Shown here in pieces: positions 15,019-21,583 of a stretch of DNA of 27,552 bases. The position numbers and the translations under genes are program-made. Under the pieces are notes generated by a model, which saw only the letters and a program-made list of their open reading frames with translations, made no database searches and was not told the origin of the DNA. This DNA is from a virus, in IMG/VR virus record IMGVR_UViG_3300046820_000267, positions 1 to 27,552 of that record; one strand, written 5' to 3'. The number at the start of each line of letters is the position of its first letter. Position 1 is the first letter of the stretch.

Positions 15019-15711
15019 TTACTTGTTCTCTTCATTAATTAGCGAAGCAGCCTGTTTTATGTACAACCTAACATCTCCGCCTAATGCTTCTGCCATTTTG
15101 TTATAAAATTGCTCATTAAAGACCTGGTCAATGGCATCATCAAAGAATCCTGTCCTCGGTAATCCCCTTTGCTTAATTTTCCTTGCTATCAGGTAGGAAG
15201 TGGTACGACCAGTGTTTAATTGTGCAACTGACTTCCTCTTTTTCTGTAAACCGCTAAGATTAAACCTTTGGTCTTCCCTTCTTGAGGATAATGCGTTTCT
15301 CTTGACCCACTTCTGAATGGCATTAACCATTGGTCCATTCATAGAAGGGTAAGCAGACCTGAACCGATAAGGTGAGTTAGGTTGTTTAGAAACAAACCCC
15401 TTTACCCCCTTATTTACATAATCGTAATAGTTAGCACTTTCTGAACTCTTAGGGTATCCAATATCTAAAAGATAACTTCCCCCAGTCTTGATTAAATCCC
15501 CCTGCTGAATATCCCTTTCAAGTGTTCCTGTGTCTACCTTGTTTGCTTTGATTAAGTTCTTCTGTACCTGAATGATGAACTGAGCAGCATAACTGATAAT
15601 GGTCTGCTCCACAAATGGCAACTCACCTAAAGAGGCATAGTCTTTTTTTTCTAATGCCTTGTCTGCTATCGCAGCATCATCAACAATCACATCAAAATCA
15701 ACCTTTGCCAT
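15019..15711 (-). CDS. HK97 gp10-like neck/tail-completion protein
   Basis: The 230-residue protein has the features of gp10-like proteins: a helix with FIIQVQKNLIKANKVDTGTLERDI (a VDTGxL motif near residues 58-63), a YYDYVNKGVKG strand, and a basic C-terminal half ending in helices (EQFYNKMAEALGGDVRLY). Such proteins join head and tail or complete the tail. Here it comes after the tail assembly chaperone frames rather than in the head module. It overlaps the frameshifted chaperone end by 14 nt. Function is inferred from the motif and family, with moderate confidence. Confidence 0.65.
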   Translation of the reverse strand: MAKVDFDVIVDDAAIADKALEKKDYASLGELPFVEQTIISYAAQFIIQVQKNLIKANKVDTGTLERDIQQGDLIKTGGSYLLDIGYPKSSESANYYDYVNKGVKGFVSKQPNSPYRFRSAYPSMNGPMVNAIQKWVKRNALSSRREDQRFNLSGLQKKRKSVAQLNTGRTTSYLIARKIKQRGLPRTGFFDDAIDQVFNEQFYNKMAEALGGDVRLYIKQAASLINEENK

Positions 15712-15979
15712 AACTCTTACGTATTAGTTCATTATCGTGTTCCATCTTCGCTTTGAGGTAGGCAAGGTCATTGAGAAAGTTTATGACAGGTAAGTTAAAT
15801 GCTTGGTCAAGTGTGATTCCTTCAAACTCGGCAACCAGTTTGGTTTGGTAAATCCATCCATAATGGTGCATAAAACCTGATGCACTTCTTCCGCTTTCAT
15901 CTTCTCCACTCCCTGCTCCATCATCTGTTGGACCATATAATCCTTTGAATTCTTTATCCAAAGTCTGTATACTTGATAA
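15698..15979 (-). CDS. tail assembly chaperone, frameshifted T portion
   Basis: This frame is open from the slippery run (codon TTA at 15979) to the stop at 15698 and has no ATG near its beginning; a TTG at 15961 is the only early start-like codon. Read as a -1 extension of the preceding gene, it adds 93 residues (LSSIQTLDKEFKG, then GWIYQTKLVAEFEGITLDQ and LNDLAYLKAKMEHDNELIRK) and gives a fusion of about 253 residues. This G/GT layout upstream of the tape measure is the classic tail assembly chaperone arrangement. The fused and unfused forms bind the tape measure during tail tube assembly and are not in the finished virion. It overlaps the 3' end of the unshifted frame by about 180 nt. Confidence 0.75.
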   Translation of the reverse strand, partial: LSSIQTLDKEFKGLYGPTDDGAGSGEDESGRSASGFMHHYGWIYQTKLVAEFEGITLDQAFNLPVINFLNDLAYLKAKMEHDNELIRKSYGKG

Positions 15980-16458
15980 AAAAAAACCACCGAACCAAGA
16001 ACGGATTGGATAGGTGCTTCAAGCATATCTTGAGCATAGTCTGAATGCTTACTTGCATCATACTTGTCATCTACCCATCCAAACCATCCCCTCTTCTGTG
16101 GGATAACCAAACAAGACATAATCTTGTGCAGATTACCCATCACATCAGAACTGAAGTGCTTAGATTCAATGTACCTTGAAGCAGGTATATTCCGCACATC
16201 ATAAACGCACTTATACCTTCTGCCATTAATCTTTAGCACCTTTACCGCTTCAGGTTTAATCTCTTCATTGATAAATGCAATGGATTGCAATAGTGGTCCA
16301 AGTTCCTTAACGGGTAATGAATCAATCTGATTTTCGGTCTGATTAGTAAGTATTGAGGCAACCTTTACGCTTATATCAAGGTCAGTAAGGTCATTGCTAT
16401 TGGCATAAAGTTCATTAATCTGTTGGTATTGGAATACTGTTACTTGTGACCAATTCAT
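15781..16458 (-). CDS. tail assembly chaperone, unshifted G product
   Basis: The unshifted protein is 225 residues, starting MNWSQVTVFQYQQINELY. Residues 1-160 precede the slippery site; a mixed alpha/beta region contains LKINGRRYKCVYDVRNI and HKIMSCLVIP. The last 65 residues share DNA with the T frame. Like lambda gpG, the G form should outnumber the fused form and act with it in building the tail around the tape measure. It is the first gene of the structural operon and is preceded by a structured leader. The frameshift and gene order support the role more than sequence similarity does. Confidence 0.75.
   Translation of the reverse strand: MNWSQVTVFQYQQINELYANSNDLTDLDISVKVASILTNQTENQIDSLPVKELGPLLQSIAFINEEIKPEAVKVLKINGRRYKCVYDVRNIPASRYIESKHFSSDVMGNLHKIMSCLVIPQKRGWFGWVDDKYDASKHSDYAQDMLEAPIQSVLGSVVFFYQVYRLWIKNSKDYMVQQMMEQGVEKMKAEEVHQVLCTIMDGFTKPNWLPSLKESHLTKHLTYLS
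15979..15985 (-). promoter_or_regulatory. programmed -1 ribosomal frameshift site (T TTT TTT)
   Basis: A run of nine T on the minus strand (15978-15986) lies at codons GTT TTT TTT TAT of the G frame. It includes the canonical X_XXY_YYZ heptamer T_TTT_TTT in exactly the zero-frame phase. A -1 slip enters the open T frame (next codon TTA). The two frames are offset by exactly -1, as needed. Confidence 0.75.
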
Positions 16459-16730
16459 AATGTTAAATAGTTTAAATGTGGTTTAGTGTATAAGGTAATC
16501 TTAATCTATACCCGAACAAGGTTATGAGGGAAGTTGGTCAGAACAGAAGTTGCCCCCTACCCCCAATAGGAAACAACTACTGACCTAACTATACCGTCAC
16601 ATAGGTAATCGGGTTTATCGGCTGCAAAGGGAAAAAGTTACATCCTTCTTTGCATTTAACAGATTTAAACTCCTTGAATTCAGAACTTTGAGAGGTAGGC
16701 GACTACTTGCAGGTCATCCAAAGTTAGGGT
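16459..16730 (-). promoter_or_regulatory. long structured leader of the structural operon
   Basis: About 270 bases between the candidate sRNA terminator and the chaperone start hold no convincing complete gene. At 16533-16589 the RNA can pair GTTAGGTCAG with CTGACCAAC (one bulge) and inner AGTTG with CAACT, enclosing an unusually G-rich stretch (GGGGG TA GGGGG). Two short overlapping frames (16680-16745 and 16589-16702) read somewhat like peptides, but neither is a clear gene. The leader may regulate late translation or hold a packaging signal. Confidence 0.4.
16719..16726 (-). promoter_or_regulatory. possible -7 element of the structural operon promoter
   Basis: The minus strand reads TAACTTTG, a perfect match to the Bacteroidetes -7 consensus TAnnTTTG, just after the upstream terminator and ahead of all structural genes. 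No TTG is found 17-23 nt upstream, where the terminator stem lies, so a primary-sigma promoter is uncertain. A phage-specific factor could be used. Confidence 0.3.
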
Positions 16731-16767
16731 AAAAAAATAACCCATACAGATTACGGCTGCATGGGTT
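16731..16767 (-). terminator. intrinsic terminator with 7-nt loop
   Basis: AACCCATGCAG pairs with CTGTATGGGTT (11 bp, one G-U) around the loop CCGTAAT, followed by ATTTTTTT on the minus strand. It would end the candidate small RNA and any read-through from the terminase region. Confidence 0.75.
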
Positions 16768-16838
16768 TGAAAAGAGAACTCTTTTATAGAGGTCTATAAT
16801 CAGACCCGAATAAACACCGTAATTATCTAATCGGATTG
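16731..16838 (-). ncRNA. candidate pseudoknotted small RNA, about 108 nt
   Basis: A promoter-like pair at 16845-16873 predicts a start near 16838. The RNA would contain stem-loops at 16791-16806 (GGTCT/AGACC) and 16770-16785 (AAAAGA/TCTTTT), then an 11-bp terminator hairpin at 16739-16767 ending in a T-run. The 7-nt terminator loop, CCGTAAT (16756-16750), is exactly complementary to ATTACGG at 16823-16817 near the 5' end, predicting a pseudoknot. No open frame of credible length fits. It is bounded by terminators on both sides, so it would be an independent transcript. Expression is not shown; the 5' end is a prediction. Confidence 0.5.
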
Positions 16839-16844
16839 ACTATG

Positions 16845-16873
16845 CGAAAATACTAAATATTTTAGAATGCCAA
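16845..16873 (-). promoter_or_regulatory. Bacteroidetes-type promoter for the candidate small RNA
   Basis: TTG (16873-16871) and TATTTTCG (16852-16845), separated by 18 nt, match the Bacteroidetes promoter pattern with one mismatch in the -7 box. The spacing is the same as for the promoter at 17153-17183. Confidence 0.4.
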
Positions 16874-16893: not shown

Positions 16894-16919
16894 AAAAAAA
16901 AAGGGAGGCGAACCTCCCT
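16894..16919 (-). terminator. strong UUCG-loop terminator
   Basis: GGGAGG-TTCG-CCTCCC followed by nine T on the minus strand: a perfect 6-bp GC-rich stem with the very stable UUCG tetraloop. It lies immediately after the 69-residue gene stop at 16924. Confidence 0.9.
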
Positions 16920-16923
16920 AAAA

Positions 16924-17133
16924 TTAATATCTATTTTTATGCTGAGACCATTCATAGTCCCATCTTTTCTCCCAAATCTTCTCACCATAATCTAACACTT
17001 CTTTAATATCAGATATTAATGATTCATCTTTAGAAGAATGCATAATATCCTTTAATAAGTTTTCATAAAAATCTAATAGTCCTCTTGAATTGCTTTTGTA
17101 ATTCTCAATTAATTTAATTTGTTCTTGGTTCAT
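16924..17133 (-). CDS. small monocistronic protein of unknown function
   Basis: I place the start at the ATG at 17133 (69 residues, beginning MNQEQIKLIENYKSNSRG); the frame extends to a TTG upstream, but the promoter at 17153-17183 overlaps that extension. The protein is helical and charged, with LLDFYENLLKDIMHSSKDES and a C-terminal EKRWDYEWSQHKNRY. It has no membrane segment and no motif I recognise. It has its own promoter-like sequence and a strong terminator, unlike its neighbours, so it is probably made at a different time. A regulatory or host-takeover role is possible but only inferred. Confidence 0.65.
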   Translation of the reverse strand: MNQEQIKLIENYKSNSRGLLDFYENLLKDIMHSSKDESLISDIKEVLDYGEKIWEKRWDYEWSQHKNRY

Positions 17134-17152
17134 TGTGTTGTGATTTGTTTTG

Positions 17153-17183
17153 TAAAAATACAAATTAAATCAATACTGCAAAA
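17153..17183 (-). promoter_or_regulatory. Bacteroidetes-type promoter of the 69-residue gene
   Basis: TTTTG (17183-17179), 18 nt, then TATTTTTA (17160-17153), a near match to TTG-N17-23-TAnnTTTG. It is 20 nt upstream of the ATG at 17133. Confidence 0.5.
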
Positions 17184-17218
17184 CTTTTTATCATTTATTT
17201 CAAAAAATATTTTAATTA

Positions 17219-18798: not shown

Positions 18799-19623
18799 TT
18801 ATTTCAAATAAGTAACAAATTCATTCCTTGCTTTGTCATCTTCTTTAAACAAACCGAATAATTTTGTTGTAGTTGTCCAAGTGTCATACTTCTTCACTCC
18901 TCTCATACACATACAAAGATGCTGTGCTTTAAGAGATACTGCTACCCCTTTTGGATTAAGTTCTTGTTGCAACCTTTGAGCAATCTCACTGGTTATCCTT
19001 TCCTGATTCTGCAACCTATTTGCATACAGGTCCAAAGTTCTTGCAAGTTTACTTAAACCGACTATCTTACCATTAGGGATGTATGCTATGGTTCCAACCC
19101 CAAAGAATGGTGCTATATGGTGTTCGCATAGTGAATAGAATGGTATATTAGATTGAACTATCATCTCATCTGTACCCTCTGCATCAAATGTAGTGAAGTT
19201 AAATTCTTTAGGATTAAGAAATTCTTTCAAGAACTTGATATATCTTTTTGGAGTTTCTTTAAGTCCTTCACGATTGGGGTCTTCTCCCAGGTATTGCAAT
19301 ATTCTTACGAAGTTGTTTTCAACTGGTTCTTCTTTAACTTCCCAAGGAAATACTAACCACCTTCCTTTCAGGTCTTCTTCTGTTTGTTTATTGAATAGTG
19401 CTACGAATGGTTTATTATACACTTTGTAATCTTGTTCTGTCTTACCACTATCAATTAGGTCATCTATGATTATATCTGCTTCCTCAATAGTATCTACAGG
19501 ATTGAGCATTGCTGATATGTATTGCCCTCCTCTCGGTACTCCATAATACTTTTTAGTTTTATCTAACTTGTTAACCCTTTCGGTAATCTCTGCCCAAGTT
19601 ATACTCCTGTTTTCTTGTTCCAT
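18799..19623 (-). CDS. folE: phosphoribosyltransferase-like / GTP cyclohydrolase I fusion
   Basis: The 274-residue protein joins two domains. Residues about 1-95 resemble a short type I phosphoribosyltransferase: YGVPRGG (27-33) and the PRPP-loop-like IIIDDLIDSGKT (51-62). Residues about 100-274 are GTP cyclohydrolase I, with zinc ligands in SLCEHHIAPF (C166, H169) and HLCMCMRG (C237), which converts GTP to dihydroneopterin triphosphate, the first step to 7-deazaguanines. It overlaps queE by 25 nt, tying it to the modification operon. The PRTase piece is much shorter than a full enzyme (about 150-200 residues), so it may be a base-recycling, regulatory or degenerate domain. The FolE half is secure. 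Confidence 0.9.
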   Translation of the reverse strand: MEQENRSITWAEITERVNKLDKTKKYYGVPRGGQYISAMLNPVDTIEEADIIIDDLIDSGKTEQDYKVYNKPFVALFNKQTEEDLKGRWLVFPWEVKEEPVENNFVRILQYLGEDPNREGLKETPKRYIKFLKEFLNPKEFNFTTFDAEGTDEMIVQSNIPFYSLCEHHIAPFFGVGTIAYIPNGKIVGLSKLARTLDLYANRLQNQERITSEIAQRLQQELNPKGVAVSLKAQHLCMCMRGVKKYDTWTTTTKLFGLFKEDDKARNEFVTYLK

Positions 19624-20321
19624 ATTTCAATATGTAATCTGTTAGTAAATTTTAGATATTCTTTTTTACAAATGTCTGCTACCTGTTTCTTTGACTTATT
19701 GATTTCTGCCTTTGTGCTTCCTGAAGGCATTAACCAAATCTTATTTCTGTTAATTTTTGCATAAGTTGTTTGGACTTCCTTGTAGTCTTGTTTGGTTGAT
19801 ATAACGAATTTGAAGATTGTGTTTAACTTATTAAGTGTTGAGATTGACTTCTCAATGTATGTCTTAGATATAGGCATACCACTATTTGATAACTTTGGAC
19901 TGCAATTCCATTGGTTGACCAGTCTTTGCATTTCTTCGTTTGGTTCAATAGTTCCATTCGTTTCAATCTCAACATAGCAATTATTGTTATGCCTTTCCCT
20001 TATGTACTTTATAAATTCCGCTACATTGGATTGTTGCATTAATGGTTCACCCCCTGTTATGATAACATTTGCTCCATTTATGATTGCTGCTATGCATTCA
20101 TGGTCAAGTATAGTATCAAATTCCTTTGCTTTACTTTTCATCCATACCTCAATTGAATCGCATCTCCAGGTTGCTCCGTTATGTAATTGTCCATCTCTTT
20201 GTGTACCTTCTCCTCCACACATTAGGTTGCAGCCTCCAAGTCTTACGAAGACTGCAGGATATCCTGTTGTTATCCCTTCTCCTTGAATGCTATAAAATAC
20301 CTCACTTACTGCTAACTTCAT
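19599..20321 (-). CDS. queE: 7-carboxy-7-deazaguanine synthase
   Basis: This 240-residue radical SAM enzyme makes 7-carboxy-7-deazaguanine (CDG) from carboxytetrahydropterin. It has the N-terminal SIQGEG motif (11-16), the GGEPL SAM-binding motif (about 95) and ETNGT. The iron-sulfur cysteines are spaced C31-x3-C35-x18-C54 (GGCNLMCGG ... WRCDS) rather than the standard CxxxCxxC; variant spacings are known in QueE. It overlaps QueD by 20 nt and the FolE fusion by 25 nt. Function is confident. Confidence 0.9.
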   Translation of the reverse strand: MKLAVSEVFYSIQGEGITTGYPAVFVRLGGCNLMCGGEGTQRDGQLHNGATWRCDSIEVWMKSKAKEFDTILDHECIAAIINGANVIITGGEPLMQQSNVAEFIKYIRERHNNNCYVEIETNGTIEPNEEMQRLVNQWNCSPKLSNSGMPISKTYIEKSISTLNKLNTIFKFVISTKQDYKEVQTTYAKINRNKIWLMPSGSTKAEINKSKKQVADICKKEYLKFTNRLHIEIWNKKTGV

Positions 20322-20712
20322 ATATTACTTTTGATGTTTTTGTTTCTGCCAGTTCTATTTTAACTATTGGAAGTCCTGCATTCTTGATTTGTGTCAGTAT
20401 CCATATTGACATATTCTCTGCTGAGGTTTCAAAAGGTAGTTCTGTGAATGGTTCGTTATTTAACTCCAACACTTTTACCAGTGGGTCTTTATCATAGAGC
20501 AGAAAGGTATGGTCATATTGCTTTATGATTGGTTCTGCTATCTTATCAATGTCGCTGAATAACATTGTTAATCCATTTACTATACTATTGAATTCAAAGT
20601 GACAGATTACATCATAGGTATGTCCGTGTATCCTACCACACTTCTCTCCTGCTTCTTTGTTCCTGTGTGCTGCATAGAAATGATATTTTTTTTCAATCTT
20701 GATTACCTGCAT
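20302..20712 (-). CDS. queD: 6-carboxytetrahydropterin synthase
   Basis: The 136-residue protein has the QueD signature: zinc ligand H16 (YAAH), catalytic-type Cys25 in GEKCGRIHGHTY, and H29/H31. It also has a YDHTFLL segment and a C-terminal AETKTS with the family Glu. It converts dihydroneopterin triphosphate to 6-carboxytetrahydropterin, the QueE substrate. It overlaps dpdA by 20 nt upstream and queE by 20 nt downstream. Unlike the paralogue at 21580-21915 it keeps the catalytic cysteine. High confidence. Confidence 0.92.
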   Translation of the reverse strand: MQVIKIEKKYHFYAAHRNKEAGEKCGRIHGHTYDVICHFEFNSIVNGLTMLFSDIDKIAEPIIKQYDHTFLLYDKDPLVKVLELNNEPFTELPFETSAENMSIWILTQIKNAGLPIVKIELAETKTSKVIYEVSSK

Positions 20713-21583
20713 AGTTTGAATATTGATTAATTAATTCATTTACTTGAAATGCTAAAATACCTGACCTCATTCCACTTGTTATTTTTGCTCCAGTTTCTTT
20801 ATGAAGTCTAATTACATCTTTCAAATATGGTTCATAATGTTCTTTCCTTAATTTGCTTATATGACCTTTCTTTCCATTTCTTAATGTTATCAATCCATAT
20901 CTCACTCCACTGTTCCAAGATGTGCTATCACTACTGCTACAGAATGATAAATTTTTTAGCAGTTTTAATTCAGTGCAACCTAAGAGATGAATATCTATAG
21001 ATGGTTTTTTATTTTTAATATAGTGAGCAAGATGTTCAGTATAGTTTTTTTGACCTAAGAATCTCAACTCAGGCACAGAGATTGCAATGTAATCTGAAAA
21101 TTCTATCATCCTATCTAATCCCTTTCGCCCATCTTCCTTATGGAATACGTTTATTTGTCTGTTATTAGGTAAATCATTTTTCATTCTTTGTCTAAACTCC
21201 CAAGCCTTTTCTACTCCTAAAACTTTTTGGCAATCTACTTCAACGCAGGTTCCTTTATATCCTCTATCTGAAACATAACCTATCAATTCACTATACCATT
21301 TATTAATAAACTTTTCATCCTTCTGTCCCTTATGACTACCAAACATCAAAGTAAATAGACCGCTATCCATTATGCAGTGGTTTGAATTCTCGTATACTTT
21401 TTTTGCAGTATTAGTAATTTCATTACCATAAGGAACAGTCTTGATGCCAAACTTTTGACATATTAAAGGAAACACAGTGAATAGCAAATAATTTGCTCCA
21501 CCTGCTTTAAGTTCACAAAAATGATTATTATTTTCTGCTGCTGCAAAATGTACTTTGAGATTGGATTGGTTTTGTACTATCAT
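20693..21583 (-). CDS. dpdA: DpdA-type DNA guanine transglycosylase
   Basis: The 296-residue protein resembles phage DpdA, relatives of tRNA-guanine transglycosylase that swap guanine in DNA for a 7-deazaguanine base. Visible motifs: CIMDSGLFTLMFG (D73, like the TGT DSGxFQ base-binding Asp), VEVDCQ (115-120), HLLGCTELKLL (199-209) and SSDSTSWNSGVRYG (217-230). It has no long C-terminal zinc-binding tail like TGT, as expected for phage DpdA. It is encoded between the QueD-like gene (4-nt overlap) and queD, which strongly supports the role. I cannot place it in a DpdA subfamily by eye. Which base it inserts is inferred below. Confidence 0.85.
   Translation of the reverse strand: MIVQNQSNLKVHFAAAENNNHFCELKAGGANYLLFTVFPLICQKFGIKTVPYGNEITNTAKKVYENSNHCIMDSGLFTLMFGSHKGQKDEKFINKWYSELIGYVSDRGYKGTCVEVDCQKVLGVEKAWEFRQRMKNDLPNNRQINVFHKEDGRKGLDRMIEFSDYIAISVPELRFLGQKNYTEHLAHYIKNKKPSIDIHLLGCTELKLLKNLSFCSSSDSTSWNSGVRYGLITLRNGKKGHISKLRKEHYEPYLKDVIRLHKETGAKITSGMRSGILAFQVNELINQYSNYAGNQD

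Follow-up and report, generated by a model that had tools for sequence, protein, structure and literature searches.

Organization of the small-RNA locus

The window considered here is the complete 27,552-base virus record IMGVR_UViG_3300046820_000267 of IMG/VR. Its main genes lie on the minus strand, which also carries a small RNA of ~105 nt, located in what in this phage group is an accessory site between the gene for the large terminase (TerL) and the next gene. The preliminary description had placed the RNA between terminase and structural genes; RNA and terminase gene do not directly adjoin here because a small ORF (16,924-17,133) intervenes. No ORF of at least 60 aa overlaps the RNA. From upstream to downstream, the elements of the locus are:

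16,924-17,133, minus strand: interchangeable small ORF of 69 aa, upstream of the small RNA, with a promoter and leader common to unrelated ORFs in relatives
16,902-16,919, minus strand: terminator of this preceding small ORF, from the terminator scan
16,871-16,873, minus strand: −33-like TTG of the small-RNA promoter, from homologue comparison
16,845-16,852, minus strand: −7 box TATTTTCG, one mismatch from the Bacteroidota consensus TAnnTTTG
16,731-16,841, minus strand: small RNA, with a predicted 5′ end at about 16,841-16,840 and a 3′ end in the U-tract 16,738-16,731, from the fold and 54 distinct homologues
16,798-16,841, minus strand: P1, the 5′ hairpin, whose stem pairs 16,841-16,824 with 16,816-16,798
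16,817-16,823, minus strand: L1, the complete 7-nt apical loop of P1 (AUUACGG)
16,775-16,795, minus strand: P2, the middle hairpin, in a variant form in the window, from the fold and covariation
16,739-16,767, minus strand: P3, an intrinsic terminator hairpin followed by the U-tract, from the terminator scan
16,750-16,756, minus strand: L3, the complete apical loop of P3 (CCGUAAU), from the terminator scan, fold and covariation

The segment 16,860-16,731 folds into three hairpins with a minimum free energy of −36.3 kcal/mol, compared to −20.1 ± 3.0 kcal/mol for dinucleotide shuffles (z −5.4); the elements proposed at the outset are all present, on the minus strand. P1 consists of an inner stem that co-varies and a lower stem (GUCAAUCCGA/UUCGGGUYUGAUU) that is nearly invariant; in most relatives P2 is a co-varying stem of 4-5 bp closed by an AACC or AACCC loop, and the U-tract that follows P3 is kept in all 42 aligned homologues (at least six T within the 8 nt past GGGUU).

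The −7 box of the window stands 4 nt ahead of GUCAAUCC. The same arrangement recurs among the homologues, with TAnnTTTG exactly 4 nt ahead of an invariant GUCA in 39 of 46 copies and TAnnTTCG in six; with one-mismatch variants included, a promoter box is found at this fixed offset in 45/46, the background of the motif in these contigs being 0.0005 per position. Of the 46 homologues, 30 have a TTG at a distance of 17-22 nt on the upstream side of the −7 box, and the remaining 16 have a GTTAG variant. TAnnTTTG is the −7 box consensus of Bacteroidota (PMC7366714); the promoter suspected in the preliminary description is thus present, but its sequence fits the Bacteroidota type and is not sigma-70-like. 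Among the best matches listed from cultured phages, TerL has distant relatives only (≤35% identity), so that the host assignment is an indirect one: to judge from promoter type and leader style, the host probably belongs to the Bacteroidota.

The terminator at 16,902-16,919 isolates the small RNA from upstream transcription, and the sequence upstream of the promoter differs between phage groups. Everything from the promoter through the hairpins to the U-tract terminator is conserved across these differing genomic settings, and so is the complementarity of the loops, which bears out the original proposal of a separate, pseudoknotted RNA. With a promoter and a terminator of its own and no ORF, the small RNA has the makings of an independent sRNA gene, and we infer that it is transcribed as a stand-alone phage gene from its own Bacteroidota-type promoter to its own intrinsic terminator.

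Covariation of the two apical loops

A terminase search of IMG/VR retrieved 80 related loci, about two dozen of which gave significant blastn matches to the small-RNA region; the RNA is carried by L009 too. Further homologues came from pattern scans that specified only the P1 stem and never included the loops, and four more were added through scans for the regions downstream. In total, 54 distinct small RNAs from uncultured phages were compared, with one strong copy per phage record; the main alignment comprises 42 sequences, the promoter comparison 46, and the held-out set 15 further matches, 13 of them distinct.

That the terminator loop CCGTAAT is a complete loop, exactly complementary to an upstream ATTACGG, was stated in the preliminary description and is confirmed, on the minus strand; what had been overlooked is that the partner, too, makes up an entire 7-nt apical loop, that of the first hairpin. 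The stem of P2 and the inner stems of P1 and P3 all co-vary, which establishes both L1 and L3 as apical loops, and the interaction is therefore a loop-loop kissing pair rather than the binding of a loop to a single strand.

L1 and L3 are perfect Watson-Crick complements in 54/54 homologues, without a single mismatch or G-U pair across 21 different loop versions, an unusually clean body of evidence that supersedes the 0.6% chance estimate made from the one sequence. Within the main alignment the loop-loop helix is paired in 286/286 cells and all seven pairs have changed on both sides, with a covariation score of 0.703 against 0.182 ± 0.021 for shuffled and at most 0.153 for slid partners (n=42). 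The held-out sequences, aligned to a model that lacked the loop-loop pairing, are paired in 91/91 cells, again with both-sided changes in 7/7 pairs. When mapped on a tree from which the loops had been excluded, the two loops underwent at least 30 parsimony changes as a pair, each position having changed equally often on either side; moreover, loop lengths change together, one group having 6-nt loops on both sides (GUAGAG/CUCUAC). Covariation between loop and partner, put forward as a check when the RNA was first described, is thus observed across the homologues. A chance match of the loops was considered as well and is ruled out by the covariation, held-out data included. L1 and L3 almost certainly bind each other in a kissing interaction; as read from the alignments, this pairing is one of 7 bp, sometimes 6, with selection acting on complementarity only and not on sequence.

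The same freedom of the loops weighs on the idea that the small RNA is a trans-acting antisense regulator, whose L1 or L3 would act as a seed against mRNAs of the phage or of the host. The gene does resemble that of an sRNA and exposed loops could serve as seeds, but the loops change freely, unlike conserved seeds, yet remain mutually complementary. Regulator and decoy, as suggested at the outset, are both conceivable functions. Elsewhere in the same phages, however, loop matches do not significantly exceed those of swapped-loop controls (33 versus 24.9 ± 6.5, and 24 versus 16.6 ± 5.1), and elsewhere on the same strand of the window there are none, so an antisense role through L1 or L3 appears very improbable.

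Genomic setting and the regions that follow

Relatives without the small RNA (L008, L026 and L027) have merely ~40 nt at the accessory site. L008 is informative for another function suggested early on, that of a packaging RNA, which would be of the phi29 type and assist the terminase motor. The RNA of this phage group does lie downstream of the TerL gene and does have two mutually complementary loops, as would suit such a function; however, the TerL of L008 is 96% identical and there is no copy of the RNA at the site or in the whole 33-kb record, and in several phages of 49-64 kb the RNA is found not beside the terminase but elsewhere, near other genes, for instance after one for a dNMP-kinase-like protein (named from its sequence). 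On this comparative evidence, the missing copy, the lack of linkage to the terminase in the larger phages and the absence of an Rfam match, a part in packaging is largely ruled out and is the least credible of the functions considered.

Several features of the surrounding genes can be recorded. In the window and in L003, L007, L009, L018, L019, L023 and L028, the small ORFs that separate TerL from the small RNA are unrelated to one another but share one promoter and leader (17,133-17,210 of the window, minus strand; ...TATATTTGAAAAACAAATCACAACACAATG), in the manner of an exchangeable cassette; in other relatives this position is occupied by HNH-like, GIY-YIG-like or methyltransferase-like genes. 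Positions 18,799-21,583 (minus strand) encode GTP cyclohydrolase I, a QueE-like radical SAM protein, a QueD-like PTPS and a possible DpdA-like protein, a set that suggests 7-deazaguanine modification of DNA. ORFs 15,781-16,458 and 15,698-15,961 (minus strand) overlap in different frames at a T run (GGTTTTTTTTTATCAAG) that is conserved in relatives, and this overlap looks like the programmed frameshift of a tail-assembly chaperone pair.

Downstream of the small RNA, the window contains one further ORF-less element:

16,501-16,711, minus strand: large, ORF-less, RNA-like region of type A, directly downstream of the small RNA, with co-varying stems

Type A includes 11 pairs with changes on both sides. 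A conserved, ORF-poor region of ~200-350 nt lies directly 3′ of the small RNA in all 45 copies with enough sequence, and these regions fall into five unrelated types (26 A, 7 B, 5 C, 3 D and 4 E; the count for C includes one missed by the anchor pattern, L103, a duplicate of the type-C copy L016). Conversely, when types A and B were scanned for independently, the small RNA lay upstream in 30/30 and 13/13 loci, respectively, among those with upstream sequence, one contig that ended too early having been set aside. When folded, types A, B and C are slightly better than shuffles and types D and E are not better. At a low threshold, types A, C, D and E gave no convincing Rfam match; type B was covered by the whole-locus scans of L024 and L010. 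The genes that lie downstream of the small RNA differ between phage groups.

Examples of the large types are found at 16,501-16,711 of the window and in L003, L009, L101 and L151, and in L089 and L119 the small RNA is separated from the type A or B region by an inserted tRNA-Leu-like gene. Just past the terminator U-tract of the window, TAACTTTG (16,719-16,726, minus strand) corresponds to TAnnTTTG, and a similar box occurs in several relatives; the large region may accordingly have its own promoter there.

The obligate adjacency of small RNA and large region is the best clue to function, and the strict coupling to large RNA-like regions that are unrelated to one another points to an RNA-based phage system missed by protein-centred annotation.

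Modes of loop pairing and relation to known systems

The explanation that we favour, and consider reasonably probable, is that of a stand-alone phage small RNA, locked by its kissing loops, that acts with the large RNA that follows. L1 and L3 would pair for the most part inside the same molecule and give it a compact, closed fold with a protected 3′ end, in which the invariant lower stem of P1 and the AACC loop of P2 would be exposed as binding surfaces; within a two-RNA accessory cassette, the small RNA would be the constant component and the large RNA the exchangeable second one. Joint action of the two is something we infer from their adjacency.

Covariation fits pairing within and between molecules alike, and the geometry of the former is demanding. 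By a rough length estimate, a straight rod made of P1, the kissing helix and P3 would measure ~101 Å against a linker reach of ~62 Å when P1 is fully formed, and ~87 Å against ~98 Å, by the same rough estimate, when lower P1 is open; since the rod exceeds the reach of the linker in the first case, kissing in cis becomes feasible if the rod bends or if lower P1 opens. This strain, together with the equal expectation of covariation, is one reason to consider that L1 of one copy pairs with the L3 of a second copy, so that dimers, chains or rings would form, comparable to the phi29 packaging RNA or to the cages of ROOL and GOLLD; in that case the diversity of the loops would prevent cross-assembly among the RNAs of co-infecting phages. 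Fully paired 7-nt loops would suit such strong intermolecular contacts, and precedents with covariation exist among phage RNAs (PMC12286853; PMC12670572); on the other hand, local concentration favours pairing in cis, which becomes feasible once lower P1 opens. Pairing between molecules is, on balance, a credible reading but a somewhat unlikely one. More speculative, and unlikely as matters stand, is a self-assembling phage RNA with lineage-specific lock-and-key loops which, together with at least five interchangeable large RNAs, would build an RNA-centred particle or scaffold during infection.

A different reading starts from RNAalifold, which draws no pseudoknots and prefers a long nested rod in which helices 1:4 and 2:3 are added to the pairing of L1 with L3. 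The RNA might then be a transcription attenuator, in which P1 and the terminator (1:2, 3:4) alternate with an antiterminator (2:3 + 1:4), the loops being paired in both states, and which would control read-through into the large RNA and the downstream genes. Besides being the RNAalifold consensus, the alternative is nearly isoenergetic in 38/42 sequences (B−A +0.3 kcal/mol), and it is favoured by the conserved linker, as only ~6% of random linkers are as stable. Nevertheless, outside P2 the private 2:3 helix has one-sided changes only; the covarying inner P1 and inner P3 stems exist in the other state only; and in the window's own type (four sequences) the alternative is 7 kcal/mol worse (+7.0). 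Because downstream genes differ between phages, an attenuator would moreover lack a common regulated gene. Overall, attenuation is a distinctly doubtful account of the RNA: a terminator/antiterminator switch is possible in most relatives and unlikely as a general function. As the loops vary freely yet stay complementary, the three models (in cis, in trans and switch) lend themselves to direct tests with simple loop-swap mutants.

The small RNA is an uncatalogued structured RNA that so far comes from uncultured phages only. Neither the window nor six homologue loci gave a match to Rfam 15 at the gathering score (cmscan), the best sub-threshold match at the small RNA being an unconvincing one to the trpB motif (20.6 bits versus 59), and the window contains no tRNA or tmRNA. 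There was no match in cultured phages and plasmids; a pattern scan of genome contigs gave eight matches, none with promoter, loops and terminator; and 395 + 397 Bacteroidota genomes gave none, a weak negative given stricter filters and no positive control. A description of the RNA was not found in the literature, as far as open papers are covered.

In ColE1, RNA I and RNA II form a loop-loop helix through fully paired 7-nt apical loops, whose complementarity arises from transcription of opposite strands. The small RNA likewise has fully paired apical loops in a loop-loop helix, but both are on the same strand, within one transcription unit, so that here complementarity must be selected. With transcription attenuators and riboswitches it has in common an intrinsic terminator and, in most relatives, a predicted competing pairing; unlike these, it is not followed by the same gene throughout, and for the copy in the window the competing pairing is disfavoured. 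Similar to the phi29-type pRNA, whose complementary loops co-vary between phages (PMC12670572), it is a phage RNA of the 100-nt class with two complementary, co-varying loops. However, pRNA is part of a packaging motor and uses 3-4 nt to pair between molecules, whereas the loops of the small RNA pair over 6-7 nt and one of them belongs to a terminator; moreover, its fold consists of three serial hairpins and has no match to the pRNA covariance model. ROOL and GOLLD, which have intermolecular kissing loops supported by covariation (PMC12286853), differ in being several hundred nt long and forming cages, compared to ~105 nt and no Rfam sequence or model similarity for the small RNA; what they share with it is that they are phage or prophage non-coding RNAs of unknown function, with covariation-supported kissing loops and sometimes located near tRNAs. 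In summary, we rate the small RNA as a new family within a known kind, that of phage-encoded structured RNAs with kissing loops.
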